Shown one piece after another: positions 10,166 to 54,118 of a stretch of DNA of 64,000 bases. Each line of letters opens with the position of its first letter. The first letter of the stretch is position 1. The notes beneath the pieces are model-generated. The model was not told the DNA's origin. It was given only the letters and a program-made list of their open reading frames with translations, and did no database searches. The position numbers and the translations under genes were made by a program. This stretch comes from Lentisphaeria bacterium. GTDB lineage: Bacteria; Verrucomicrobiota; Lentisphaeria; Oligosphaerales; Oligosphaeraceae. Where the stretch lies: positions 1 to 64,000 of the forward strand of contig JAKSPB010000008.1 of assembly GCA_024405215.1 (NCBI GenBank), in the 5' to 3' direction.

Positions 10166-12892
10166 CTACTCCAGGTGGAAGAGCTTCATGCCGATTTCCT
10201 CGGTGAGTTCCACCTCGATGGAGGATTTCTTCTCTGGAGCGCACTTTTCAGGAAGCATTTCCGTGACGGTGCGTTCTTCCGGCAGTGTAATGGTATATTT
10301 TCCCGCCTTTCCGTTGATGGAAACGAAGGAATCCGTTGCCCAGATGACTGCCGTGCCAGAGTTTTCGTAGCAGTGGATGCCGTTTTCGCGGAAGATTGCC
10401 TTCCATGCGTCTCTGGAGAGGAATCCCGTTGTGGAATAGTATTCCAGAGCGTCGCCGTTCCTGCGTGAGGCGAATGTGATTTCATCCCTGCTTTCGTTGC
10501 GCCATGCCAGCGGCGTGATGTCTTTTTCGACGATGCCGAAAGACGGTCCCATGACGATGTCGGAAAAAGGCGTCATCCTGCCGCCGTTTGCCATGATGGC
10601 GCAGCCGTCGTGGGCGACGGCCTTTTCCGTGACTGCGAAGCCCGTGAGGTCGCGGATGCCGTCGACGCTGTGGCCGTTGGCGTCCAGATAGCCTGGCGCG
10701 TAGAGCCACACGATGCTCTTGCCGGCCTGGCGGAGCTTTTCAATGATGGCGCGTTTCTCAGGCGTCAGATAGAAGATGTTCGCCATCACATAGATCTGGT
10801 AGTCGCGTACGTTCGGATTGGCGAGGTCGCTGACGAGCAGCACGTCGAATGGAGTGCCAGTGTGTGTGAGTTCCTGCGCGTTGCAGTCAAGCATCAGGTC
10901 GATGTTCGTCGTGGAGATGCGGTTGTAATAGACGCTCTCCAGGTCGGCGACGACCGCCACGCGGGAGACGGGCTTGTTGCCTTTGGCCGCCAGGTCCCGG
11001 AGTTCTTTGATCTTGCGGAAGAACGCGAGAATCTGCGGGTCGTTGTACCAATGGCGTGTGAAGTCCATGAACCAGCAGCCTGCGTTGCGGCAGAGGGTCT
11101 GCGCCAGGTCGCGGGAGAGGGTGGTGACGGACTGCGCGGGGGTGTAGACGTGGCGGTGGTATGTCTCCTCCACGGCCAGATGGGTTCTGCTGTCGTGCTC
11201 CTGAATCTGTATCTTTCCGCGCAGCCTGTGGCTCTCCACGGGACTGCGTCCGAACTCGGCATCGTCCACTTCACGGTTGGAGTAGAGATCTGGCGCGGAC
11301 TGCCAGTCGACAACGCCCGAGGCGAGGAGCTCTTCGTTTTCCAGATGCCACGCCTCCACGGGATAGTGCATTCCGAAAAGGTAGCCGTGATAATTGCCTA
11401 CGAGTTTGCGATAGCCGCAGGCTTCCTTGATGGCGGTGTCCCACGCAATGACTAGATCGCGCATTTCACCCTGCATGGTGTGCAGGAAGTCTATGACGGC
11501 TGCGTTCTCCACGGGATCGCGCAGCGTGCCCAGCGAGTCGATGGATGCGTTGCGTTCGTCGATGCCTGGAATCTTGGCGGTGTCGATGGTGACGGCGTTG
11601 TCGTTCCAGGCTTTCTGCAGCGCTTCGTCGGTGCCGTATTTCTTGCCGAGGTATCTTCGGAAGGCCTCTTCCATGCGCTTGCAGGTGCCTGGCATGTGGG
11701 AGCGCATGCCAAGATAGTGCCATTCGCGATAGACGCCGAAGTCCACGCGATAGGAGATGACGCGCTTGCCGATGGGCAGTGATTCCACGTAGTTGACCAC
11801 CTTGCGCAGATATTCCGCGCCGTCCTTGCGCCATTTCAGCGACGCGTAGGAGGGTGAGCGGACGTTGTTGACGGGATCCTTCTCCGCGAGGTTCACGCCG
11901 CCCACGCCGTAGTCCATGAGTTCGTCGGGATTGGCGTCCATCCACCATTTCGTGGAGCCGTTCAGGTTGATTGCGAAAATCAGATATGCGTCAGGATTCA
12001 GAAGAAGCGCGTTATAGAGCCGGTCGTGAATCTGCTTCTCGTTGATGCTGCCGTCGGCGTTCCAGCAGTCGCTTTCGATGCCAAGGAAATAGAGGTCCAG
12101 TCCGCCCCGGTGGAAGTTCTCGATCTTCTCCTGCGTCTTTTCGGAATCGTAGGGCCATGCGTAGGGCGCACCGTAGAGAAGCGCGTCGACTTTTCTGCCG
12201 TTCAGCACGAATTTCGGATTGGTGTCCGGAAGGACCTCCGTGGTGACGGTCAGTTCCGGCTCCGCCTCAAGCCTTTTGTTCAGGGCAGTCATCTTGTCTT
12301 CAGCCATCTTTTTCTCCTTGTAGTAGACTTCTCTTTCTGCGTCGTCATAGATTTCGCGGCAGTTGTATGTCTCGGCCCAGGGGGCCGTCAGCGTATTGCC
12401 CATGTCCAGCGGTTCCGCCCAGCCGCTGTCGTCGAAATCCTTATCCAGCCAGCCGCTGTCCGCCGTGCGGGAAATCTTCCATGATTTGTTCGTGAATACA
12501 TCCAGCTTGGTCTTTCCACCGGCGCTTATGGCAAGATGCCCGATAAGGCCGCCGGGGCCGGAGCCGTTTCGGATTTCGACGCAGAGGACATTCCTGCCGT
12601 CCTCAAGAAAATCAGTCAATGTAAAGCCATTGGTGGAGCCGCTCGCCACTTTTGCTGCCTTGTGTCCGTTGAACCAGATGACCGCCGAATCGTCCGCCCG
12701 GTAGAAGAAGGTGGCCTTTTCGCCTTCCGTTTTTTCCCAATGAAAGACGACACGCGCGTAGCGGGAGGCATTCGTCGTCTTTTCGCCGAACTGCTCAGGA
12801 TACCAGATCCAGCGCGCCTTGCTGTCAATCGACGATTTGGCAAAGAGCATGGATGCCAGCATCAGGGCGACAATAAAGAGTCTTTTTGTCAT
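10166..12892 (-). CDS. Large secreted glycoside hydrolase, GH42-like architecture
   Basis: 908 residues from ATG 12892, chosen because a signal peptide follows at once (MTKRLFIVALMLASMLFA). The N-terminal 150 residues (SKARWIWYPEQ, FFYRADDSAVIWFNGHKA) are a jelly-roll like those before alpha-rhamnosidase or beta-galactosidase barrels. The middle resembles a long TIM barrel (YLIFAINLNGSTKWWMDANPD, VISYRVDFGVYREWHYLGMRS). The region QIYVMANIFYLTPEKRAIIE, then KLRQAGKSIVWLYAPGYLD, looks like the beta-galactosidase trimerisation (Rossmann-like) domain. A periplasmic or outer-surface enzyme; the substrate cannot be told. A prepilin-type gene lies upstream on the same strand, with a hairpin between them. 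Confidence 0.75.
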   Translation of the reverse strand: MTKRLFIVALMLASMLFAKSSIDSKARWIWYPEQFGEKTTNASRYARVVFHWEKTEGEKATFFYRADDSAVIWFNGHKAAKVASGSTNGFTLTDFLEDGRNVLCVEIRNGSGPGGLIGHLAISAGGKTKLDVFTNKSWKISRTADSGWLDKDFDDSGWAEPLDMGNTLTAPWAETYNCREIYDDAEREVYYKEKKMAEDKMTALNKRLEAEPELTVTTEVLPDTNPKFVLNGRKVDALLYGAPYAWPYDSEKTQEKIENFHRGGLDLYFLGIESDCWNADGSINEKQIHDRLYNALLLNPDAYLIFAINLNGSTKWWMDANPDELMDYGVGGVNLAEKDPVNNVRSPSYASLKWRKDGAEYLRKVVNYVESLPIGKRVISYRVDFGVYREWHYLGMRSHMPGTCKRMEEAFRRYLGKKYGTDEALQKAWNDNAVTIDTAKIPGIDERNASIDSLGTLRDPVENAAVIDFLHTMQGEMRDLVIAWDTAIKEACGYRKLVGNYHGYLFGMHYPVEAWHLENEELLASGVVDWQSAPDLYSNREVDDAEFGRSPVESHRLRGKIQIQEHDSRTHLAVEETYHRHVYTPAQSVTTLSRDLAQTLCRNAGCWFMDFTRHWYNDPQILAFFRKIKELRDLAAKGNKPVSRVAVVADLESVYYNRISTTNIDLMLDCNAQELTHTGTPFDVLLVSDLANPNVRDYQIYVMANIFYLTPEKRAIIEKLRQAGKSIVWLYAPGYLDANGHSVDGIRDLTGFAVTEKAVAHDGCAIMANGGRMTPFSDIVMGPSFGIVEKDITPLAWRNESRDEITFASRRNGDALEYYSTTGFLSRDAWKAIFRENGIHCYENSGTAVIWATDSFVSINGKAGKYTITLPEERTVTEMLPEKCAPEKKSSIEVELTEEIGMKLFHLE

Positions 12893-12925
12893 TGAGGTAT
12901 GAAACAACGGTTGTAGAATATGGGA

Positions 12926-12966
12926 AACCTGCCGCGAAAGCATTGTTTGCGCCATCGCGGCAGGTT
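12926..12966 (-). terminator. Stem-loop between prepilin-type gene and downstream glycosidase
   Basis: A perfect 12-bp inverted repeat (AACCTGCCGCGA / TCGCGGCAGGTT, arms 12926-12937 and 12955-12966) starting 18 bases after the stop codon of the prepilin-type gene. The U-tract is poor, so it may be a weak or partial terminator that lowers expression of the downstream hydrolase relative to the pilin-like protein. Confidence 0.55.
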
Positions 12967-12983
12967 ACGATTTCATTCACGAA

Positions 12984-13835
12984 TTAGCGGCCCTTGTCGC
13001 CGCCGTAGACATCGATGCCGGGATACCAGTAGAACTTCATGCGCAGCGCGGAGGCGGTGGTGCCGTCAGTGAAGGCGGCCTTGTTGACGGATTCCACGTG
13101 GCCATCGCCGAAGGAGAAGTTGCAGGCCAGGCTGTGGCGGCAGTAGCCGAGCTTGACGCCTTCGTTGAGGGCGACCATGACGCCGACGTGGGTCCAGTTG
13201 GCGGTGCTGTAGTAGCTGGCGTTGCCGGCCTTGTCGGTGTTGACGCCGTCGGTGATGTTGACGTAGATGCTGGGATACTTGATGGAGCTGATGCGGTGCC
13301 AGGTGCAGGACTTGTTGCAGCCGGACTGGTCCATGCCATTCTCGCTGTTGTAGATTCGCTCGTTGTAGCCCATGCCGATGTTGGCCTGGTAGCAGGTGTT
13401 CATGCCGCAGCGCCAGTCAGGCGGGCAGGAGGGGCACATGTAGATCTTGTGCCAGTTGGAGTTGTCGGTGCCGGTGCCGGCCATGTCGGCGGCAGGGTCC
13501 TTCTTCAGGAAGTCGTCGCCGCTCATGGGAGCGCCGGGCAGCAGCGGGTTCAGAGTCTGCCAGGTGGCGGCGCGCCAGTTGGTCAGCCAGTCGCCGTATG
13601 CGGCCCAGTCGGACTGGGGATAGTCGTAGGCTGCGTAGCAGATGGGCAGCAGGAAGTCGTCGCTGTCGTTGGTGTAGAGGAGGTTGCCCAGCTGGATCTG
13701 CTTCAAGTTGTTGGTGCAGCTGATGGCGCGGGCCTTCTCGCGGGCCTTGGAAAGCGCGGGCAGAAGCATGCTGGCCAGGATGGCGATGATCGCGATGACG
13801 ACAAGCAACTCAATGAGGGTGAAGGATTTCTTCAT
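12984..13835 (-). CDS. Prepilin-type N-terminal methylation protein (DUF1559-like)
   Basis: 283 residues with a strong AAGGAG site 6 bases before the ATG. The start [23 protein letters not shown] is a class III (type IV/type II) prepilin signal: a short basic leader, cleavage before Phe, Glu at +5 and a hydrophobic helix. [17 protein letters not shown] follows, then a globular domain with several Cys and Trp. Such proteins are very numerous in Lentisphaerota genomes and usually sit beside glycosidases. They are assumed to be pseudopilins or surface proteins, with no proven role. It is probably co-regulated with the glycosidase downstream and divergent from a GntR-LacI regulator. Confidence 0.85.
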
Positions 13836-42446: not shown

Positions 42447-42735
42447 CTGAGGAATTCGTTGAATTCAGGGAACTTATGTTCTGCCTACTTTAGAATCTTA
42501 CATTCATGATTTTGTTTTTTTGTGGTACAGTATGTCCGGGGCAAAACCACACAAGGAACTGTGCTGGTTATTCTGCAGAGTAACCAGCATACTCCTGTAA
42601 TGCCGAATTGCGCAGAAGGCCTGGACGGCGCTACAGGAAGTTTAGTATGATTTTGTTGTTTTTTCAAACTTTACAGAGTACTAGTAGTCTTCTAGCCTAC
42701 TAGTGTTGACCCAGCACAAAGACAGGAGCTCAGCC
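42447..42735. other. Intergenic region with two perfect hairpins
   Basis: No gene is seen in these 289 bases. Hairpin 1 (42562-42589) is TGCTGGTTA / TAACCAGCA with a ten-base loop. Hairpin 2 (42680-42704) is ACTAGTAG / CTACTAGT with a nine-base spacer, 31 bases before the AIM24-like start, and could be an operator. The AT-rich stretch 42640-42675 between them may contain the promoter. Confidence 0.5.
42680..42704. promoter_or_regulatory. Candidate operator, ACTAGTAG-N9-CTACTAGT
   Basis: A perfect 8-bp inverted repeat with a spacing of about two helical turns between centres of the arms, just upstream of the ribosome site of the AIM24-like gene. Symmetry and position suit binding by a dimeric repressor; no candidate regulator is adjacent. 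Confidence 0.45.
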
Positions 42736-43416
42736 ATGAATTACGACATTCTTCATCCAGGTGCCTTCCCTATCGTCAAATGCGATCTTTCCCCAGGCGA
42801 ATCCCTGCAGGCGGAATCTGACGCCATGGTATCCATGTCAACCACAATGGATATCAAGGGAACTGTCAGCGGTGGCCTCCTGGGCGGGCTGGCCAGAAAA
42901 TTTCTGACAGGCGAAAGTTTCTTCACCCAGCGAATCACGGCGGCCCGGGGGGAGGGCAGTGTCCTGCTGGCGCCGCCCACCCCTGGCGACGTGGCCGCCA
43001 TTCCTCTGGATGGCTCCCACGGTCTCCGTTTGCAGAAGACAAGCTTCCTGGCGGCGACGGAAGGCATTGAAGTCCAGACGAAAATGCAGAATCTGATGAA
43101 GGGCTTCTTCTCCAAGGAGGGCTTCTTTGTCATCAACGTCACGGGCAAGGGCGTCCTTTTCGTCAGCAGCTATGGCGCAATCCATCCCATCGTCCTTGAA
43201 GCAGGCCAGGAGGTCATTATCGACAATGGACATCTGGTCGCCTGGGACGAGTCCATGGACTATAGCATTGAAAAGGCTTCCAATGGATGGGTTTCCAGCA
43301 TTACGTCCGGTGAATGCCTGGTTTGTCGCTTCAAAGGTCCCGGCACCATCCACATCCAGACCCGCAATCCCAGCGGCTTCTTCAATTGGATTCGAGGTGC
43401 AATATCCGCGAAGTGA
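42736..43416 (+). CDS. AIM24 family (TIGR00266-like) protein
   Basis: 226 residues from ATG 42736 with AGGAG 8 bases before. The start (YDILHPGAFPIVKCDLSPGE, then SLQAESDAMVSMS), the Gly-rich GTVSGGLLGGLARKFLTGES and the late GEVIIDNGHLVAW-like segment (QEVIIDNGHLVAWDESMDY) are typical of this widespread single-domain beta-protein family. It is named after a yeast mitochondrial protein; the bacterial role is unknown. It converges with the truncated hsdR, with 32 bases between the stop codons. Confidence 0.88.
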   Translation: MNYDILHPGAFPIVKCDLSPGESLQAESDAMVSMSTTMDIKGTVSGGLLGGLARKFLTGESFFTQRITAARGEGSVLLAPPTPGDVAAIPLDGSHGLRLQKTSFLAATEGIEVQTKMQNLMKGFFSKEGFFVINVTGKGVLFVSSYGAIHPIVLEAGQEVIIDNGHLVAWDESMDYSIEKASNGWVSSITSGECLVCRFKGPGTIHIQTRNPSGFFNWIRGAISAK

Positions 43417-43448: not shown

Positions 43449-46103
43449 TCATCGAGGGGGGGCTTCTGCGTGTTTTATGTCTTTGGGTGGCTTTGCGTCG
43501 GCGGGGGGCGTCCGGAAGGAACAACGCATCATCTTGCGCTTGAATCCGGCGATGGCCATGAAACATTGCGTCAGAGCAGACTCTTCCTCGCCCAATTCAT
43601 CGGAGGGCTGGCAGATGTCGTAAGCGATGCGCATCCGTTTTACGCAACTCAGGAAATATGTTTTGAAAGAAACTTTCTGGTTGGCTTTTCGACCGTCGAT
43701 GTTCATCTCTTGCGTGGAGGCAAAAACGTATTCCGCGGCTTTGGTCAACAGACGGTAGCGTTCGACAGGATCGCAGCCAGGGTTGAGGAACGGTGCCAGA
43801 TCGTAGCCGGCGAACTGTTGTTTGAGAATGCCCAGCTCGTCGCGGAATACGCGCGTGGCCTGCTCCACATCGTCGGCGGTGGGAGCCACGGAAGTGTCGC
43901 CACCATACATTTTCATCGCCTCGCGCATATTGTCGCGAATGCCGATGTAATCCACAATCAAGCCGTACTCCTTGCCCGGAAACTTGCGGTTCACCCGGCT
44001 GATGGTCTGTATGAGCATGTGTTTCTTCAACGGCTTGTCGTTGTACATGTAGGTGAGCGACGGCACATCGAAGCCGGTGATCCACATATCCACCACAATG
44101 ACAATGTGGAAGTGGGATTTTTCCTGTTTGAAGGCGGCATCGAAGGTTTCCGACCGCTTGTCGTTGGCGGCTCCGCCCAGATAGTTGTACATTTCCGGCG
44201 CATCGTTGCTGCCCACGCTCGACACTATGGCCATGAACGGCATCGGCTTCAGTTCCCTGAGTTCTTCTTCCGTGACGCCGATGTCATCGGGATGCTTTTT
44301 CTCCTCAAACCATTCCGGATATTTGGTCTTGAACTGCTGCAGCAGCGCGTAGGCAATGGGGCGGCTGGAGCAGACGATCATCGCTTTCTGGATTCTGTCC
44401 GGATCGCCGGCGCAGGCAGCCACGTAATGGTCGTGGATGTCGATGGCCAGTCTTTCCAGGCGCGACGGTTCGCCGAGGATGATTTCCATGGAGCTCATCG
44501 CCGCTTTGCTGGCTTCGATGTCATCGGCGGTGGCGCCGTCGTCGGCACAGTTCTTATAGTAAGCCTCTATCTCCTTGACTTTCCGCGCATCCAGCAGGAC
44601 TTTGGAAATGCGGGGATGGTATTTGATGGGGACGGTCAAGCCGTCGGCAACGGCCTGGTCCATGGTGTAGCGGTCGATTTCCTCGCCGAAGGTCTGGTAG
44701 GTTTCCGCGATGGGCGTTCCGGTGAAGCCCCCGAAGGTGGCATTGGGGAAGGCCTCCTTCAGCACCTTGGCGTAGGGCTTGGAGACCATCGCCCGCATAT
44801 TTTCGTTGGCGTCCTTGCTGAACTGAATCTGGCGGGAACGCTCAAGCTGCGTTCGGTGTGCCTCGTCGGAGAAGCAGATGATGTTGCTACGTCCGTTGAT
44901 GAGCCCGATCTTGTCTTCCTCGCGGTCGCAGAATTTCTGGATGGTGCAGATGTAGAACCCGCCGCTTTGCCGTGCGCACAGTTCCTCGCGCAATTTCTTT
45001 CTGCTTTTCACGATGGAGACTTCGCCGAGGTTCAAGAACTCCTTGCTCTTGGTGAAGAGCTTGGCACCCTGTTTCTGCAGCTCTTCCCGATCTACAATCA
45101 GGATGATGGTGGGCGAGCCTATTTGCTCCACATCGGTGCAGCGCAGGGCTAGTTGGCGGGCGAGAAATGCCACCGTGAAGGTTTTTCCACAGCCGGTGGC
45201 GCCAAAATAGGTGCCGCCTTTGCCGCTTTGCTCCACTACCGATTTTACGATACTCTGCTTCAGCAGTTTGGAGGCGAAGAACTGTGGATAACGGCATACG
45301 ATTTCGCGCTCTTCGCTGTCGTAGATGCTGTCTTGGAAGTAGATGTAGTCTCTGAAAATCTCGAGGAAACGGCTGGGCGCGTAAACGCCTTGTATTAGGG
45401 TTTCGGTTTCGGCAAATGGCAGGGTGGACACTTTGTCGCCATCGTTTACGCGACGCCAGGCATAGAAATGTTCGTAGGGTGTACGCACAGTACCGAGGCG
45501 CGTTTTGACGCCGTCGCTGATGCAGGCCAGCGGACAGTAGTGCAGCAAGTGCGGAATGTCGCGCCAATAACGGATGTTGATCTGCTCCCACGCATTGAAG
45601 ATGGTGGCGTGGGCATCGGCGGGATTCTTGAGCTCGATGACGCACAGCGGCAACCCGTTGACGAACAGCAGCACGTCTGGACGGCGGTTTTCCTTTTGGC
45701 CGTTGTTGGTGTATTCTACCACAAACTGATTGACCACACGGAAAATGTTGTTTTCCGGATGCTCGAAGTTGATGAGTGGCACCATCTGAGCCAGGCCGTT
45801 TTGCGGTATAAACTGCACGCCATCCACCATCCAGCCATACACTTTGTGCAGGGTGGCGAAATCGTTCTCGGTACCCGCCAAGCGCACGGTGTCGTATATC
45901 TGCGTAACTTCCTCTTCTGTAAATGAAGGATTGGTTTCCACAATAAACTGCTTGAAGTCCTCCGCAATGAGGACTTCGCTTTTGCTGCGGTGGATATCGT
46001 TGCCGGCAGTATATTGCCAACCCGCGTTCTCCAAGAACCCGATGAAGGCATTCTCGAACTCCGATTCGCAATAACGGCCGTTATAATTGGTGAGTCTGGA
46101 CAT
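43449..46103 (-). CDS. hsdR: Type I restriction enzyme R subunit, C-terminally truncated
   Basis: 884 residues from ATG 46103. The nuclease motif RPDVLLFVNGLPLCVIELKN (PD...ExK) is at about 141-160. Helicase motifs: Walker A GATGCGKT (301-308), DEAH in CFSDEAHRTQ (about 410-419), GFTGTPI (459-465) and QTISRVNRKFPG late. Family sequence continues as far as LTQCFMAIAGFKRKM, where the alignment breaks into an odd 25-residue Pro/Lys-rich tail and stops. The usual C-terminal helical domain (about 100-150 residues) that docks R to the methylase is absent in every frame, because the convergent gene begins 32 bases away. Last gene of the RM operon. Confidence 0.9.
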   Translation of the reverse strand: MSRLTNYNGRYCESEFENAFIGFLENAGWQYTAGNDIHRSKSEVLIAEDFKQFIVETNPSFTEEEVTQIYDTVRLAGTENDFATLHKVYGWMVDGVQFIPQNGLAQMVPLINFEHPENNIFRVVNQFVVEYTNNGQKENRRPDVLLFVNGLPLCVIELKNPADAHATIFNAWEQINIRYWRDIPHLLHYCPLACISDGVKTRLGTVRTPYEHFYAWRRVNDGDKVSTLPFAETETLIQGVYAPSRFLEIFRDYIYFQDSIYDSEEREIVCRYPQFFASKLLKQSIVKSVVEQSGKGGTYFGATGCGKTFTVAFLARQLALRCTDVEQIGSPTIILIVDREELQKQGAKLFTKSKEFLNLGEVSIVKSRKKLREELCARQSGGFYICTIQKFCDREEDKIGLINGRSNIICFSDEAHRTQLERSRQIQFSKDANENMRAMVSKPYAKVLKEAFPNATFGGFTGTPIAETYQTFGEEIDRYTMDQAVADGLTVPIKYHPRISKVLLDARKVKEIEAYYKNCADDGATADDIEASKAAMSSMEIILGEPSRLERLAIDIHDHYVAACAGDPDRIQKAMIVCSSRPIAYALLQQFKTKYPEWFEEKKHPDDIGVTEEELRELKPMPFMAIVSSVGSNDAPEMYNYLGGAANDKRSETFDAAFKQEKSHFHIVIVVDMWITGFDVPSLTYMYNDKPLKKHMLIQTISRVNRKFPGKEYGLIVDYIGIRDNMREAMKMYGGDTSVAPTADDVEQATRVFRDELGILKQQFAGYDLAPFLNPGCDPVERYRLLTKAAEYVFASTQEMNIDGRKANQKVSFKTYFLSCVKRMRIAYDICQPSDELGEEESALTQCFMAIAGFKRKMMRCSFRTPPADAKPPKDIKHAEAPPR

Positions 46104-46114
46104 AATACGCAAAT

Positions 46115-48499
46115 TTATTCTGTTGGTGAAACATTAACACCTATACTATTAAGGAGGGCATCATATTGCTTTTGATCATGATATTGTATACATTCAAGAA
46201 TCATTTGTGCATCTTTTTTCATCGTTTCAACAGGATATTCAACAGGATTTGATGCTCGTTCTATATCGCCTTTTAAATGAGAATATTCATTAGTAACCCT
46301 CTCATTCAAAAAAACGGGTATCTTTTCTCCAAAAAAGCTTTCTTGCTTTACTCTATCTTCGCTATCATCTGGATATTTGTAAAATAGGTATATTTCTAAA
46401 AATTTGCGAGCATTATTGCTGAAATTATAGAATAGAGGATACGTTTCTTCACCTAATTCTGAATTCGCACATTTATATATAGAATCGAATAAATAATTGA
46501 ACTCTGTGACGAAATCCTTCATATATTTTGGCATAACCATCAAATTCGTATCATCATTTTTTCTTTCTATAATGAAATATCCTTTAGAACGATCTCTGTC
46601 GTTATCAACATATTTGCCTTTTAGTCTTTTCAGATACTTCAGAAAATCCAAGTTATGAGTTGTGATGAAAAGTTGTTCAAAATTATCTTTTATTGCAATT
46701 TCTGAAGAAATCAAAGAGTAAACAAAAAACACATGATTTGCGTCTAAAGAGCAAATCGGGTCATCTATCCAAATTAATGGCTTTTTGCCAGCGGTTTCTG
46801 TGTCGTTGAGTTTAGCCATAAAATACGAGAAAGCGACCAATCGACATTCTCCTTCACTTAAATTATATGCTTTTTTGCCATTTCTTTGGATCTCGAAACG
46901 ATAATGCTTTGCGTCTTCGTTCTCCGATTCTTCCTTTATTGGAACTAATTGCAGAAATTCGTGACCAAAGAAATTGGTTAAATATTCATTGACTTTGTTT
47001 GCACCTTTTTCTTCGTCATTCAGTTGTGATTTCTTAATTGCAAGTTCAGTTTCTTTTTTGCCAACATCATCTTTGAAGGTGTCAAATTCAGTTTTTTTCT
47101 GACCTGCTTCTTTTTTTAGATCGTCTATTTCTTTATATAAATCAGAATATTTAATGTCATCAACAAATTGTTTGACAACGTTGAATCGAAGTGTGTGTTT
47201 TGCCTTATCCTTTTCTTTCTGTAAAATTCCCCCGTATTGCAATGCTTGTTCTACAATTTCATTGTATTTTTCAATAGCATCCGTAAGTTCCTGTGTATGA
47301 TTATTTGGTTCCTCAAAAACAAGTTCATGAAATACATCTTTCTTTTTGTTTTCTAATTGAGCAGATAGTTTATCCAACTCCTGACAATAGTTAGAAATTA
47401 TTTTTTTTATGCTTTCCAAATTTGTTTTTGCGTTGTTTTGAAACTTAACATATAAATCAGTCTCACTTATATTTTCAGTGATTTTCTTAGCTTTCGTCTT
47501 TTCGTCCTCAATCTTTGTTATCTCTGTTCTCAAATCATTTTGAAGAGCATCCATTTCTTCATTAAAATGATGTTGCAATGTTTCCAATCTACCAGATGGA
47601 ATAGGTTGTCCACAGAAAGCACACGTATTTCTTTCTTTATGTAAATCAAGTCCTTCTTTTACCCAATTATTCAATAAAGAGTTTTCTACAAGTTCACGAA
47701 TTTTATCTGCACTTTCAACCTTGGAAGCCAACAAATCTTTTGTTTTTGAAATTAAGGTGTCATACTGTAGCGAAGCATAGGCTTTTCGAATACTCGCTTT
47801 TGTTTCTTCTAGCAACAGTTTTTTTAAGTCTGTTATTTCTTGTTCTGTTTTCGAAGTAAAGCTAGAAAGTTGTTCTATATCTGACTTTAATTTTATTTTG
47901 TCATAATTAGGAGAAACAAAGTTGCTATTTTGATTCTTCATTTGGCTGGCTTTGTCAGTCAGGCGTTTACTTAATGAATTTATCTTGTCTTTATAATTTT
48001 TGTCGGCATCTTTATATGCTTTTTCTTTCTCGCCCAGTGCTTTGTATAAACCAGTTTTCTCTTCTTCTGTATTTTTGCCTAATTCATTTTGAAGACTTTC
48101 TATCTCTGATGCTAAAGTGGTATTACCATCTCCCAATATCGCGAAAGGCTGGATATTACCACTATCTGAATCTCGTAAGAATGATAAATTTTCATCAATA
48201 AAATCGGAATTAAAAACTCGGAAATTTTGCTTGTTAGCAATCTGAGTTTGATCAATATCCTCTCCGTCTTTAATTTTCAATTGGAATTTTGGGTTTACAT
48301 ATTTATCAGATATTTTCCCGGTTTCAAATGCTCGAAATATTCTTGACAAAGTTGTTTTACCAGAATAATTTCTACCATATATGATATTTATGTCTTGAAA
48401 AGTTTGGATTCTTCCATCCTTGTCTTTAACGCAGTCATCCCATTTGAAATCTTTGAATACTGCAAGATTCTCTATAGTATGTATTTTCGTAACTTTCAT
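46115..48499 (-). CDS. rloC: RloC-like anticodon nuclease (ABC ATPase with zinc hook)
   Basis: 794 residues with AAAGGAGG before the ATG. Walker A is GRNYSGKTT (42-50). A long coiled coil holds the CxxC hook NTCAFCGQ (Cys293, Cys296). The ABC signature is NLSEGE (546-551), Walker B is KPLIWIDDP (573-581) and the switch His is in FITTHNLDF (615). The AAA_13/Rad50-like layout matches RloC, a translation-disabling tRNA anticodon nuclease linked to type I RM. The C-terminal part has R698-x3-E702 and His741, the order of the PrrC/RloC nuclease triad. More AT-rich than neighbours, suggesting separate acquisition. RloC is thought to act when restriction fails or DNA is damaged. Confidence 0.8.
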   Translation of the reverse strand: MKVTKIHTIENLAVFKDFKWDDCVKDKDGRIQTFQDINIIYGRNYSGKTTLSRIFRAFETGKISDKYVNPKFQLKIKDGEDIDQTQIANKQNFRVFNSDFIDENLSFLRDSDSGNIQPFAILGDGNTTLASEIESLQNELGKNTEEEKTGLYKALGEKEKAYKDADKNYKDKINSLSKRLTDKASQMKNQNSNFVSPNYDKIKLKSDIEQLSSFTSKTEQEITDLKKLLLEETKASIRKAYASLQYDTLISKTKDLLASKVESADKIRELVENSLLNNWVKEGLDLHKERNTCAFCGQPIPSGRLETLQHHFNEEMDALQNDLRTEITKIEDEKTKAKKITENISETDLYVKFQNNAKTNLESIKKIISNYCQELDKLSAQLENKKKDVFHELVFEEPNNHTQELTDAIEKYNEIVEQALQYGGILQKEKDKAKHTLRFNVVKQFVDDIKYSDLYKEIDDLKKEAGQKKTEFDTFKDDVGKKETELAIKKSQLNDEEKGANKVNEYLTNFFGHEFLQLVPIKEESENEDAKHYRFEIQRNGKKAYNLSEGECRLVAFSYFMAKLNDTETAGKKPLIWIDDPICSLDANHVFFVYSLISSEIAIKDNFEQLFITTHNLDFLKYLKRLKGKYVDNDRDRSKGYFIIERKNDDTNLMVMPKYMKDFVTEFNYLFDSIYKCANSELGEETYPLFYNFSNNARKFLEIYLFYKYPDDSEDRVKQESFFGEKIPVFLNERVTNEYSHLKGDIERASNPVEYPVETMKKDAQMILECIQYHDQKQYDALLNSIGVNVSPTE

Positions 48500-48530
48500 G
48501 ACAAACCTCCTTTATTATTCATTTCATTTT

Positions 48531-49658
48531 TCAATCCTTTCTCCCTTCCTCAATACTTCCTTTTATCAATATCGGACAAATGTCCTTGATTTGCGCTTTC
48601 AACTGCTCGTTGATGCGCTTGCGCTCGATGTAGCAGTTGTAAATGTTTACGATGGATTTCTGAATCTCAATGTCGGGAATGGGGATTTCAACTTCATAGA
48701 ATCGATCCATTTCCAAGTTCGTTCTTATACTCGCATCACTCATAAACCATCCTAATCGATCACATTCTTTACGTGAGAACCACATCATTACATATTCCGA
48801 AATCACATTATTATCAATATTCTCAAGGACGGTATAAGCAGGTGAAATAACAATCGGTCTTTCTTCTTCAAAAAGCGCAATCCGAATGCATTCATCTCTA
48901 CCTGTTTGCATACCCGAAAATGCAAATTGCCCTTTTCGAACTATTTTATATTTTGCTAAATTCACTCCATTGGTATCGGCAACAGTTGGCATAAATTGTT
49001 TGTTAATATTAATACCTCTTACGTCTGTTATTAAGCCGTTATCATTTCGATTATCAATTTCTGATAAAATTTTTCCGACAGTCTTTCTCTCCGACTTACT
49101 TTTGTATTCTTCAAGCAAAGCCTCGTAAGAGAGTTTCAAATCCTCCAGTCCGCGCTCGTAGTTCTGCTGGTTGGCCGACATCGCGTTATATACGTCCACG
49201 TACTTCTGCTGGATGTCGAGCGAAGGAAGGACGATTTCAATGTCGCAGAAATCTTCCCAACTGAAAGTCTCACGAGCAGAACCCCACGAATTGAATCTTG
49301 AATACCTGTCAAATTCCGGACGGTTGAAGTACATAAACAAATAGTCAGAAAGAAGCAGATCGCTTCTTTTGATGCTGAAAACCGTATATATGGACGAAAT
49401 TATAATGCCATTGTTTGTGTTATTAAAAGCGATTGCGATTTTGTCTCCTCGTCTTGAGGTGTCGGAAACATATGCAAATTCATTAGTTTTAATAACTTTA
49501 TATGAAGTTAGACTAACACCATCCATATTGGCTTTTGTTTCTATAAATTCTTTACCTGTAGAAAATCCCTTCACATCATCAAGGGAATAAAGGCCTTGAG
49601 AATTTCTCTCGTCTTCGAGTTGAATCAGCTCGCCCAATTTGTATTTCTTCAATGCCAT
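48531..49658 (-). CDS. hsdS: Type I restriction enzyme specificity subunit
   Basis: 375 residues from ATG 49658 (AAAGGGGG site upstream), 4 bases after the preceding stop. Two target recognition domains (about 1-150 and about 195-340) each end in the conserved helix entry (DIEIVLPSLDIQQKYVDVYN and YEVEIPIPDIEIQKSIVNIY). The two halves are visibly alike: FSTGKEFIETKANMDGVSL against INKQFMPTVADTNGVNLA. The paired TRDs bind the two halves of a split DNA site within the M2S complex. Confidence 0.9.
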   Translation of the reverse strand: MALKKYKLGELIQLEDERNSQGLYSLDDVKGFSTGKEFIETKANMDGVSLTSYKVIKTNEFAYVSDTSRRGDKIAIAFNNTNNGIIISSIYTVFSIKRSDLLLSDYLFMYFNRPEFDRYSRFNSWGSARETFSWEDFCDIEIVLPSLDIQQKYVDVYNAMSANQQNYERGLEDLKLSYEALLEEYKSKSERKTVGKILSEIDNRNDNGLITDVRGININKQFMPTVADTNGVNLAKYKIVRKGQFAFSGMQTGRDECIRIALFEEERPIVISPAYTVLENIDNNVISEYVMMWFSRKECDRLGWFMSDASIRTNLEMDRFYEVEIPIPDIEIQKSIVNIYNCYIERKRINEQLKAQIKDICPILIKGSIEEGRKD

Positions 49659-49662
49659 AGTT

Positions 49663-51045
49663 TTATCCCCCTTTGATAATTTCCCAGTGGCCACCTTTGG
49701 CGGGGCCGACCCATTGTATGAGTTTCCTCTCTTGCAGGTGAGCCATATCTCTCTGAATGGTTTTTCTGTTTACATTCAGTTTCTCCGAGAGATATTTTGT
49801 GTTTACTGCGACATTTTGTGCGACATTATCTACGACACCCTTTTCTATCAGTTCTATGATAATTCGCTGTCTCTCAGTTAGTTCTTCCGCGACATTTACT
49901 GCGACATTTTGTACATCTATAGGGTTTTGTTTTGATAGATTTACATTATTCCTCTGGAATGTAACCAAGACTCCTCCTTGTGTTGATTCGATGGTAGGTT
50001 TGGGCAGTCCTGCTGCCAAAAAGCCATCACAGATTTTTTTCCAGCCTCTTCCCCATGATTCGATGAATCCCGCTTTGTAGAAAGCAAACGCCAGATTCTT
50101 GTTACGCGGATAGGAGGCATGCACCTTCTCTATGTTTTCTGGAGTGATTGCAGGAGGCAACTCGCCATCGTTCCATATCTCCACGTGATGATCCCAGACG
50201 CGCATCTGTATCTGCGGGCCAAAGTAGTCCTTATGGCAGATGGCATTGTAGAGAATCTCACGCAAAGCATCTTCGGGCACCTCCAACGTTTCAATGCGTT
50301 GTAATCCTTCATAATGTATAGGCATAGTGAGAAATTTGTCTTTGAGCATCCTCACCACGCGATCAGCCATTTGTATGATGCTGCACTCTATCATCTCTTG
50401 CGACAATAAATCGGCGATATCGGAGTGGAATCGACCTATTTTGAATTCCGTGCCAGTAAAATACCGACCTGGAGTCTTGCAGAACAAGAGTAGTGCTGCG
50501 TTCTTCAAATGCCCTTCATCATCTACCAAATGTAAATTTTGCAACACGGTCATTGTCGGGGCATTTGCCTCAGATGGGTCAATACGTCCAGCTTGAATAC
50601 CTTTACGCAAGAAAAATTCAATGGCCTCACGTTCAAGGTCGTCCACCGTGGCACGTTCATGCACCATATCGTCCCACGAACGTCCCATTTTCTTTAGTAT
50701 GAATTGTTGCAATGCCACCCCGTTCAGTTCCTGCATAGTGCTGCCCGAACGGTAATAGTATTTACCCTTGTAGCTGATGGGAATGTTGCTTGGAGCTACT
50801 GCAATTTCCATGTAGTCCTTGCCATCTCTGTTCCGTATATTCACATCTGCCACAACACCCAAGAGAGCGACGATCTTGTTGGGAATATCTTCCGAAAGAC
50901 GATGTGCATTTCCCACTCCACAGACGTTTCCTTTATCATCAATGCCAATATAAAGTTTGCCTCCCTGTGCATTGGCAAAGCCACAAACCCATTTCAGGTA
51001 TTCGTCTCGCCACGATTCTTTGTATTCTATATTTTGGTTTTCCAT
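49663..51045 (-). CDS. AlbA_2-domain (RecG-like N-terminal) putative transcriptional regulator
   Basis: 460 residues. The AlbA_2/Slfn-like domain (about 1-115) starts NIEYKESWRDEYLKWVCGFA, then NAQGGKLYIGIDDKG. HATPase-like HKDYFGPQIQMRVWDHHVEI and NDGELPPAI (about 265-295) follow, and the C-terminus has winged-helix segments (RQRIIIELIEKG; LSEKLNVNRKTIQRDMAHLQ). A repeat of (Q/V)NVAVN occurs at about 390-425. COG2865-type proteins often sit inside type I RM operons, here between hsdM and hsdS (3-base gaps), and are thought to regulate them; the function is unproven. Confidence 0.85.
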   Translation of the reverse strand: MENQNIEYKESWRDEYLKWVCGFANAQGGKLYIGIDDKGNVCGVGNAHRLSEDIPNKIVALLGVVADVNIRNRDGKDYMEIAVAPSNIPISYKGKYYYRSGSTMQELNGVALQQFILKKMGRSWDDMVHERATVDDLEREAIEFFLRKGIQAGRIDPSEANAPTMTVLQNLHLVDDEGHLKNAALLLFCKTPGRYFTGTEFKIGRFHSDIADLLSQEMIECSIIQMADRVVRMLKDKFLTMPIHYEGLQRIETLEVPEDALREILYNAICHKDYFGPQIQMRVWDHHVEIWNDGELPPAITPENIEKVHASYPRNKNLAFAFYKAGFIESWGRGWKKICDGFLAAGLPKPTIESTQGGVLVTFQRNNVNLSKQNPIDVQNVAVNVAEELTERQRIIIELIEKGVVDNVAQNVAVNTKYLSEKLNVNRKTIQRDMAHLQERKLIQWVGPAKGGHWEIIKGG

Positions 51046-51048
51046 ATC

Positions 51049-52689
51049 CTACACCTCGTCAATATTGTATCCAATCCCCCTGAACGCCTCTTCGAGCATT
51101 TTCTGAGACTGCTTTTCGGCAACCATGATCTGCTTCATTTCGTTCTGTATGCGTGACATTTCCGCGGGGTAGTCGATATCCAGGTCGTGGTCGATGAACT
51201 CGATATACTTGCTGGGCGTGAGCGTCCAGTTCTTGCTTTCAATTTCGCTGATGCCCACGCTGCGGTAGAGTTCGGGCACTTCGTAAGCCGCGCCGTCGGT
51301 GCCTTCACTCTGCCAGGTGTGGTAAATGGCGGCGGCACGTTCTATCTGCCCGGGCAGCAGGCGCACCTTCTTTTTCTGCTCGTCCTTTACCGGATTTTCG
51401 TTCCATTGGCGCAAGTCCATAAAGAGAATCTCGTGTTCGCGGTTGCGGAGCTTCTTGCCGTGGCATTCGCCGCCTTTCTTGTTCTGGTTCAAAATCCAGA
51501 GCGTCACGCTGATATCCGTGGTAATGAACAGTTCCCGTGGCAAGACGATGATGGCTTCCACCTTGTCGTTCTGGATCAGCCGCTTGCGGATTTCCAAGGG
51601 GGCGCTGTCGTTCAGCGCGCCGTTGGCCAGCAGGAATCCGGCCACGCCGTTGGCGGGTTTCAGGTGCGAAAGGATGTGCAGAATCCAGGCGTAGTTGGCG
51701 TTGCTTTCGGGCGGCGTCACATAGTCGGCCCAGCGGGCGTCGTTTTTCAGATTGTCGTTGTACCAGCCCTTCAGGTTGAAGGGCGGGTTGGCCATAATAT
51801 AGTCGAAATACCAGCCTTTGTGCAAATCGTTTGTGAAGGAAGAATCATAGGTCTCGCCCAGATTGTGGCTGAGGCCGCGCAGGGCGAGGTTCATCTTCGC
51901 CAAACGGTAGGTGGCCGACTCCTTCTCCTGCCCGTAAATGTTGATGCGGTTCACGTCGCCCTGCTTGGCCTTCACCAGCTCGGCACTCTGGATGAACATG
52001 CCGCCGGAGCCGCAGGCCGGGTCGTAAAGCGTGCCTGCGTAAGGCTCAATCATCGAGGCGATGAGCTGCACCACATCGTGCGGCGTGTAGAACTCGCCTT
52101 CTTCCTTGGTGGCATTCACCGCAAACTCCTTCAGGAAATACTCATACACGTGGCCAATGAGATCTTTTTCCTCGCCAAAGGCCTTGTGGCTGATTTTGTT
52201 CACTTCATCCACCAGTTTCTTGATGTCGTTGGCACCCAGATTTCGGGTGGTAAAGGTCCCCTCGATGAAGCATCCTTTCAGTTGCTTGGAATCTGTGGCA
52301 ATGCTGTGCAGGGCGGTATCGAGTGCCACATTGAGTTGCGGCGCGGGTGTGTTGATGATCTTTGACCAGCGTGCCTCGGGCGGCAGATTGTAGGTGCCGT
52401 CGGTAAAAGTGGCGTCATCAAAGAACGCCTTGATGATTTCCTCATTGTCGGGATCCAGTCCGTCGTTCACCAGCTGCTGACGGAGTCTGGCCACGCCGTC
52501 TTCATACTTCTCGCCAATGAAGCGAAGGAAGATGAGCGTGAGCATCATGTCGCGCTTTTCAAAAAACGAACCGGCGTTGCGTGCCGCACGCAGAATATCG
52601 CGGCAACTGAACAGAATGTTGTCAAGATTCACTACATTGCCTGTTTTTTGACTTGCGACTCTTGAGGTATGTTCAGTTTTGTTTGACAT
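51049..52689 (-). CDS. hsdM: Type I restriction enzyme methylase subunit (N6-adenine)
   Basis: 546 residues from ATG 52689. An N-terminal helical domain (DILRAARNAGSFFEKRDMML) precedes the catalytic domain with the SAM motif DPACGSGG (223-230) and the adenine methylase motif NPPF (301-304). Other landmarks are GEFYTPHDVVQLIASM and VLPRELFITTDISVTLWIL. With HsdS it forms the methyltransferase that marks host DNA. First gene of the minus-strand operon. Confidence 0.95.
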   Translation of the reverse strand: MSNKTEHTSRVASQKTGNVVNLDNILFSCRDILRAARNAGSFFEKRDMMLTLIFLRFIGEKYEDGVARLRQQLVNDGLDPDNEEIIKAFFDDATFTDGTYNLPPEARWSKIINTPAPQLNVALDTALHSIATDSKQLKGCFIEGTFTTRNLGANDIKKLVDEVNKISHKAFGEEKDLIGHVYEYFLKEFAVNATKEEGEFYTPHDVVQLIASMIEPYAGTLYDPACGSGGMFIQSAELVKAKQGDVNRINIYGQEKESATYRLAKMNLALRGLSHNLGETYDSSFTNDLHKGWYFDYIMANPPFNLKGWYNDNLKNDARWADYVTPPESNANYAWILHILSHLKPANGVAGFLLANGALNDSAPLEIRKRLIQNDKVEAIIVLPRELFITTDISVTLWILNQNKKGGECHGKKLRNREHEILFMDLRQWNENPVKDEQKKKVRLLPGQIERAAAIYHTWQSEGTDGAAYEVPELYRSVGISEIESKNWTLTPSKYIEFIDHDLDIDYPAEMSRIQNEMKQIMVAEKQSQKMLEEAFRGIGYNIDEV

Positions 52690-52732
52690 TAACACTTGTT
52701 TTCGAGGGGAACAGTGGGATAACTATTAAAGT

Positions 52733-52763
52733 CATAATTTAATGTATTATTCCTCCCTTTCAA
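52733..52763 (-). promoter_or_regulatory. Candidate promoter of the type I RM operon
   Basis: On the minus strand TTGAAA (52758-52763) is followed after 16 bases by TAAATTAT, an acceptable sigma-70 -35/-10 pair about 45 bases before the hsdM start. The AT content rises sharply here. No experimental support. Confidence 0.35.
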
Positions 52764-52849: not shown

Positions 52850-54118
52850 CTATAGTTTGCCTGGGGGCGTGAAGCGCTTGTCCAGGAGGTGTTCCAGGCG
52901 GAGGTCTCCCATGGAGTGTCGCATGGCTTCGCGGACGCCGGGGAAGCGTCCGTCCAGGGTCTGCAGGAGCTCTTCCAGATATTTGCGGTCGCCTCGTTCT
53001 TCCAGCAGCGGCTCGTAGGGACAGGACTGGGTCTTGGGGAAGTCGAAGAAGTCGGCTGCGGCATGGATGTCCGCCTTTTCCAATCCCCAGAGGGGACGGA
53101 TCAGTCGGGCGGCGCCGCCGTCGGCGGGAACATTGGGGCCCATGGTCTTCAGGCCGCCGCCATGGAAGAGGCTCATGAGGAAGGAGACGCAGAGGTCGTC
53201 CAGATGCTGTCCCAGGGCGAGTTTGTTGCAGTGGAGTTCCTTCAGCAGGAAATGGAGCTGTCCGCGCCGCAGCCGGGAGCACCGGGGGCATGGTTTTTCG
53301 CCGACGATGTCGCTGGTCAGAAGGGAATAGAGTTCCGGGAGGCGTCGATGGTGGAATTCCCAGCCTCGTGCGCGGCAGTATGCTTCGATGGGAGTGGCGT
53401 CGAATCCGGGGTATCCCACATCGATGTTCGCCGCGACGATTTCCAGGGGGAAGGGCATTTTCCTGCGGAGGGTATGCAGGAGTTCCATGAGCATGAAGCT
53501 GTCCTCTCCGCCGGAGAGCCCCACCAGGATCCGGTCGTCTTTCTGGAAGAGTCCGAAGGCTGCGGAGTCCTTTGCGCACTGCCGCAGGAGTTTCTGGAAG
53601 ATTCTGGTGCGGTAGGGGACCTCCTGCAGGAACTTCTCTGCTTTCTGGCGGAACTCCGCCACGATTTCGGCGGGTGTCCGGGTGGCGTCCAGGTGGATTT
53701 CGCAATCCTGGTAGTATGGCTGGCGCTGGATGAAGCGCTCCTGGCTCCAGAGGGGACGCGTGGCTTTCTCGGCGTCGGAAAGACGGGCCGTGATGGCCTC
53801 CAAGGAGATCTCCAGGGTGGCGGTGATGCCGCTCTCTTTCATGATCTGGCGGTTGCCGGGATAGACAGGCAGGCCGCCGCCCGTGGCGACGACCGCGAAC
53901 TCCTCTTGTTCGGCAATGCTCTTCAGTGCCGACTGTTCGGCCTGGCGGAAGGCCTCTTCGCCTTTCTGGCGGATGAAATCCCCGGCGGAGAGGGAATAGA
54001 GCTGCCGGATGCGTTCGTCGGTGTCGATGAAGGGACGCCCCAGGGTCTGTGCCAACTCGCGCCCCACGCGGCTTTTTCCGCTTCCCATGAAACCGGTCAG
54101 ATAGATGTTTTGGCTCAT
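52850..54118 (-). CDS. Fusion of shikimate kinase and TtcA-like tRNA 2-thiocytidine synthetase
   Basis: 422 residues. Residues 1-165 are shikimate kinase: Walker A GFMGSGKS (9-16), DTDERI (32-37), ATGGGLP (79-85) and lid Arg at RPLW (121-124). Residues about 168-422 are TtcA-like: PP-loop LSGGEDS (201-207), CPRC (277-280) with SRLRRGQLHF, and a third Cys at QSCPYE (366), the set that holds the [4Fe-4S] cluster. The first half would phosphorylate shikimate, and the second thiolates C32 of tRNA. No start signal is seen between the halves, and both keep their key residues. The gene overlaps the CPBP gene upstream by four bases. Confidence 0.88.
   Translation of the reverse strand: MSQNIYLTGFMGSGKSRVGRELAQTLGRPFIDTDERIRQLYSLSAGDFIRQKGEEAFRQAEQSALKSIAEQEEFAVVATGGGLPVYPGNRQIMKESGITATLEISLEAITARLSDAEKATRPLWSQERFIQRQPYYQDCEIHLDATRTPAEIVAEFRQKAEKFLQEVPYRTRIFQKLLRQCAKDSAAFGLFQKDDRILVGLSGGEDSFMLMELLHTLRRKMPFPLEIVAANIDVGYPGFDATPIEAYCRARGWEFHHRRLPELYSLLTSDIVGEKPCPRCSRLRRGQLHFLLKELHCNKLALGQHLDDLCVSFLMSLFHGGGLKTMGPNVPADGGAARLIRPLWGLEKADIHAAADFFDFPKTQSCPYEPLLEERGDRKYLEELLQTLDGRFPGVREAMRHSMGDLRLEHLLDKRFTPPGKL

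Follow-up and report, generated by a model that had tools for sequence, protein, structure and literature searches.

RloC is defined by the motif R-x3-E-x36-52-H, in which the His is often part of a Ser-His pair, by a coiled-coil insert carrying CxxC, and by a length of 658–897 residues (PMC2610378); in the protein of Geobacillus kaustophilus, R692, E696 and H737 have been confirmed through mutation (PMC2610378). RloC is switched on by linear DNA together with ATP, and the characterised members cut tRNA-Glu and tRNA-Gln (PMC3874168), and the C-terminal domain of PrrC and RloC has been classed as HEPN (PMC3710099). PrrC works as a guard in cis of a type I complex (PMC12707154, PMC3710099). For RloC, the founding survey linked 8 of 73 genes to type I/III restriction–modification (RM) and put forward a connection with restriction alleviation as a proposal only (PMC2610378), and in Acinetobacter baylyi a DNA-break inducer activates RloC even in RM (hsdR/M/S) mutants (PMC3874168). 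Thus, the original prediction overstates the case in saying that established work ties RloC to type I RM in a back-up role. Genes of this kind have been seen in RM loci before: the hsd loci of Campylobacter jejuni contain rlo genes (Miller 2005, as cited in PMC2610378), and RloC-like genes within RM operons, as well as Fic/Doc partners, are described in an earlier survey of HEPN proteins (PMC3710099).

Here, we describe a locus in a 64-kb stretch of DNA (the window) from a Lentisphaeria bacterium in which five consecutive, tightly packed ORFs on the minus strand run hsdM, AlbA_2, hsdS, rloC, hsdR. As in the hsd loci of C. jejuni, an rloC-type gene is inserted in an hsd locus, here in another taxon and with AlbA_2 in the hsdM–hsdS gap. 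As with PrrC in EcoprrI, its predicted nuclease gene lies within an operon for type I RM, a location that sets it apart from most RloC genes of the founding survey; unlike in EcoprrI, HsdR is truncated. The gene arrangement is already known and is not a new kind of system, and the locus is a good example of it.

The first gene, hsdM (51049..52695, minus strand, as are all features of the operon), encodes an intact type I methyltransferase subunit of 548 residues (Pfam N6_Mtase 5e-88, HsdM_N 6.6e-12). It is followed by the gene for a Schlafen-type AlbA_2, HATPase_c_4 and HTH protein of 460 residues (49663..51045; Pfam SLFN_AlbA_2 6e-16, HATPase_c_4 1e-17, HTH_11 6e-5), by hsdS for the type I specificity subunit (48531..49694; Pfam Methylase_S 5e-11, PADLOC Specificity_I 5.9e-151), by rloC for a predicted anticodon nuclease of 794 residues (46115..48499; Pfam AAA_13 9e-132, PADLOC PDC-S06 5e-272 and PrrC 1.9e-9), and by a 3'-truncated hsdR of 887 codons (43449..46112, with an ATG at 46103; Pfam HSDR_N 3e-33, SWI2_SNF2 5e-45, and T1RH-like_C over positions 7–107 of 329). 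PADLOC assigns REase_I, PDC-S06, Specificity_I and MTase_I; HsdR scores above the TIGR00348 cut-off in a family model search, and HsdM and HsdS are present with open frames. The ORF list, Pfam and PADLOC support each of the five genes in the order, orientation and close spacing first proposed. The hsdS frame can start at a GTG (49694) or at an in-frame ATG near 49658, just past the AlbA_2 stop, and the ATG is the more likely start; the intergenic gaps measure 3, about 4 (an overlap if the GTG is used), 31 and 2–11 bases. Promoter- and terminator-like sites in the region are near chance levels, an Rfam scan of the region gave zero matches, and the 64 kb hold no tRNA genes.

GC content steps from 0.53–0.57 across hsdR and hsdM to 0.31–0.39 across rloC and hsdS, with GC3 values of 0.26 for rloC, 0.41 for hsdS, 0.47 for AlbA_2, 0.72 for hsdR and 0.74 for hsdM. 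Because the GC content of rloC falls below that of its own locus in most cases linked to RM (median −4.6 points), the step is partly a property of the genes, and we rejected it as a sign of very recent transfer. At 52850–54118 of the window (minus strand) lies a shikimate kinase fused to a PP-loop domain of the tRNA-modifying type, a fusion kept in some genomes of the same family, others matching the PP-loop part only.

The RloC protein and its relatives

Compared by published features, the 794-residue protein resembles RloC of G. kaustophilus and A. baylyi in its Rad50-like ABC ATPase and CxxC zinc hook, and both its length and its R-x3-E-x38-SH motif fall within the published definition. The Walker A motif GRNYSGKT (residues 42–49, 48353..48376), the ABC signature LSEGE (547–551, 46847..46861) and the Walker B/D-loop WIDDP (577–581, 46757..46771) are evident as motifs and in the alignment of relatives. 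The zinc hook C293-x2-C296 (47612..47623) and the predicted catalytic R698-x3-E702 (46394..46408) occur in 66/66 relatives; in the predicted end of the triad, S740-H741 (46277..46282), His is found in 66/66 and Ser in 65/66. All of the residues that the original prediction named, with Walker A given as G42–T50, lie where it had placed them. The R-x3-E...H motif alone proves little because the simple pattern occurs twice in the protein, at residues 268 and 698. However, R698, E702, H741, C293 and C296 are 100% conserved in the 66 relatives, which come from genomes and viral contigs and are 23–55% identical to the window protein, at a mean column identity of 37%; their conservation is thus above chance. 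Other invariant columns are K48, E551, D579–P581 and H615, so that Walker A, the signature, the Walker B/D-loop and the H-switch of an ABC ATPase are all represented. A further residue, Glu666, which sits between the ATPase and the triad, is likewise invariant in 66/66. Among 72 full-length relatives from named genomes, CxxC is present in all 72 and R-x3-E...[ST]H, searched as a simple pattern, in 69.

Profile–profile comparison (hhalign) with PrrC proteins fetched with the PADLOC PrrC model gave a probability of 98.5 and an E-value of 2.4e-15, with R698, E702 and S740-H741 falling on the R-x3-E...SH residues of PrrC and, hence, not outside the nuclease pocket. The AlphaFold2 model (mean pLDDT 87.5) has a Rad50-like head, a long coiled coil in which helices 126–342 and 351–493 flank the zinc hook, and an all-helical C-terminal domain. 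Foldseek returned Rad50 as the best solved match and mainly Rad50, cohesin and condensin overall, with no solved RloC or PrrC structure recognised by name; a PDB search with the protein sequence gave zero matches, and one with its profile only chance matches to coiled coils and a weak match to Rad50. Assignment to PrrC was rejected, as PrrC proteins have 341–416 residues without the coiled-coil/zinc-hook insert. Altogether, the invariant residues, the PrrC alignment and the Rad50-like predicted fold uphold the RloC-like identity first suggested: by every feature testable from sequence, the protein is RloC, and the best evidence that its triad is that of a nuclease is homology. A Rad50/SMC-like ATPase devoid of nuclease activity would fit the breadth of the AAA_13 family in Pfam and the fold matches, but we regard this as highly improbable, given that R698, E702 and H741 are invariant, and the triad thus common to the whole family, and align with PrrC, and that Rad50, cohesin and condensin do not have the C-terminal helical domain of RloC (PMC2610378).

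Relatives of RloC were found on 202 plasmids (129 conjugative) and at 73 IMG/VR loci, and none covering most of the query was found in named phage genomes. To place the operon among these genes, we counted neighbors at 51 named RloC loci flanked by 6 kb or more on each side. Because the profiles started from the window's own genes and the list was sorted by similarity to the window protein, the counts are not a survey: hsdM or hsdR lies nearby in 17 and both in 12, and the other 34 are without hsdM/hsdR by these profiles. The order hsdM-hsdS-rloC-hsdR occurs at 12 other loci in all, and a search for the five-gene order found it complete in Treponema sp. MAG Mgla_MAG_ref_448. Identity between the two loci is 85% for HsdM (84.6% over 526 residues), 24% for AlbA_2, a distant branch from that of the window, 42% for HsdS, 55% for RloC and 77% for HsdR. 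The high values for HsdM and HsdR against the low values for the three proteins between them would be expected from an exchange of cassettes in the middle of the locus. Unlike in the window, hsdR is full-length in the Treponema locus, and it is separated from rloC by an additional Fic-domain gene (12348–13445 of that locus, plus strand), encoding HPFQDGNGR (HPFxDGNGR, read by eye), a repeat linker and an HTH; its position fits the published association of RloC, RM and Fic.

Truncation of hsdR

By alignment and Pfam, the nuclease and motor domains of HsdR are present in the window and a C-terminal domain of about 248 residues is missing. The closest HsdR found is that of the Treponema relative (1,107 residues), the match ends at residue 861, and the 26 residues that follow are related to no HsdR found; closely related full-length HsdRs have 1,030–1,114 residues as against 887. 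The tail without homology (43449..43523) lies between the break and a convergent AIM24-family gene (42703–43416, plus strand). When the whole genome was searched with the complete Treponema HsdR, the window gene matched only residues 1–861, and the missing 248 residues had no match in this 97%-complete genome even at E 10. As a positive control, the same query found its counterpart in 8/8 genomes with full-length HsdR, at 27–100% identity overall and at 27–37% in the seven genomes other than its source.

The truncation comes from a single MAG assembly, a draft of 82 contigs, which leaves some room for an assembly or binning artefact in an organism with a complete hsdR, the more so as the AIM24 neighbor was not found in the two same-genus genomes examined, which thus offer no junction for comparison. 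Yet, the break sits inside a 76-kb contig, about 110 bases from the AIM24 gene, no 18-base repeat was found across it, and no other contig carries the missing part; we therefore consider an artefact quite unlikely.

The C-terminal helical domain of EcoR124I HsdR is held to interact with the methyltransferase (PMC2602864), and because this domain is missing, normal restriction is doubtful. As read from the assembly, then, the locus is not an intact type I RM system: the genes and order of the "compact type I RM island" originally proposed stand, its intactness does not. Classical restriction is probably impaired, and a "back-up" role in which RloC senses HsdR is doubtful here. A second type I-like locus on another contig of the same genome (C3:12000-30000), with an hsdM-like gene (27% identical), a gene of 527 codons and an HsdR-like gene of 1040 codons, is a possible RM partner in trans.

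A Schlafen-type protein between hsdM and hsdS

In profile searches of the PDB, the AlbA_2 protein matches the nuclease lobe of SLFN11, SLFN14 and SLFN8 (E 1.7e-8 to 2.1e-7), its ENQNIEYK and GIDD aligning with ESxxxEFK and GVDD of the Schlafens (SLFN11/SLFN14). E2-x4-E7 (51025..51042) has the spacing of the two catalytic Glu residues of Schlafen RNases and is kept in 18/19 relatives; the third acidic residue, D37 (50935..50937), is Asp in 17/19. Together, they reproduce the two Glu and one Asp of the SLFN13 active site, E205/E210/D248 (PMC5862951). The structural model is moderate (pLDDT 79, built from 7 sequences); Foldseek places 3lmm, an uncharacterised bacterial protein, first, followed by SLFN12, SLFN11 and SLFN14, and gives a weak match to the tRNase domain of SAMD9 (E about 0.01).

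A Schlafen-family RNase joined to a minimal histidine kinase and a wHTH has been described in association with BREX (PMC12839542). The protein here has the same three-domain architecture and keeps the acidic trio, but it lies with type I RM genes rather than with BREX; among relatives in the same phylum with readable flanks, 5 of 13 belong to type I RM loci, where most of them adjoin hsdR, and a search of viral contigs found none. Most likely, therefore, the protein is a second, separately triggered Schlafen-like RNase and not only a regulator, an activity that we infer from these likenesses. The label "AlbA_2 regulator" undersells a gene with a Schlafen-type domain, an acidic trio, HATPase_c_4 and HTH, and it need not be a regulator at all. 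We also note short tandem-repeat linkers directly before the HTH, both in the window protein (residues about 380–412, NVAVNVA...NVAQNVAVN) and in relatives (EKSSEKSS, GNQLGNQL, TEQVTEQV, SGKMSGKM, QKTTQKTT), which are possibly slippage-prone.

How the operon may work

The island is a mobile anti-phage gene block. We think it fairly probable that it is a laterally built defence operon in which RloC acts autonomously, AlbA_2 is a second RNase, and restriction is impaired. In this model, HsdM and HsdS would make a type I methyltransferase, with RloC in an accessory slot between hsdS and hsdR and the Schlafen-type AlbA_2/HATPase/HTH protein in another between hsdM and hsdS. RloC most likely follows the published mode of its family: its Rad50-like ATPase and zinc-hook coiled coil would sense DNA ends arising from phage attack or DNA damage, and ATP turnover would turn on the C-terminal HEPN nuclease. 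The nuclease may then cut the anticodon loop of tRNAs (tRNA-Glu/Gln in characterised cases), whereby translation would be stopped and infection aborted.

It is conceivable instead that the type I complex silences RloC in the manner of PrrC, and that phage anti-restriction proteins or restriction alleviation release the nuclease. PrrC itself acts in this way (PMC12707154, PMC3710099), and tight operon linkage, together with the recurrence of the hsdS-rloC-hsdR slot in 12 loci, speaks for such control. However, the domain through which HsdR is held to engage the methyltransferase (PMC2602864) is missing here, DNA breaks activate A. baylyi RloC even when hsdR/M/S are mutated (PMC3874168), and most RloC genes are unlinked, including the 34 of 51 well-flanked loci above, for which the profiles used found no hsdM/hsdR. 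We therefore hold this guard arrangement to be unlikely; with the C-terminal assembly domain of HsdR gone, RloC more probably acts autonomously than awaits inhibition of HsdR, and we prefer activation by DNA breaks over the HsdR-guard model.

A somewhat more serious possibility, although still an unlikely one, is that the block has drifted since the loss of the hsdR 3' end and carries RloC and AlbA_2 as passengers without a present role. The truncation lies at the edge of the island beside a housekeeping gene, and the second type I-like system on another contig fits such decay; on the other hand, all other frames are open, hsdM, hsdS and AlbA_2 are free of frameshifts, and RloC has kept every catalytic and ATPase residue. 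Finally, we entertain as a speculative and very unlikely alternative that the restriction-less locus has been repurposed, such that HsdM/HsdS mark and sense DNA and restrain both RloC and the Schlafen-type nuclease while the truncated HsdR is an unassembled motor or lost; if this were true, a methyltransferase would here be running an abortive-infection module with two nucleases.

Beyond the original prediction, this analysis adds the hsdR truncation, the Schlafen reading of AlbA_2 and a named relative with the same gene order. It also adds a clear RM-embedded RloC, type I RM linkage being an unusual case for RloC, and such a case bears on the question of control in cis of RloC by RM proteins. 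Because the HsdR C-terminus has been lost naturally, the locus can be tested against the Treponema relative with its full-length HsdR: should RloC here remain under restraint and still be triggered, HsdR would not be its switch. Moreover, the presence of a Schlafen-type gene in an rloC operon suggests that two translation-targeting nucleases may be stackable behind one RM system.
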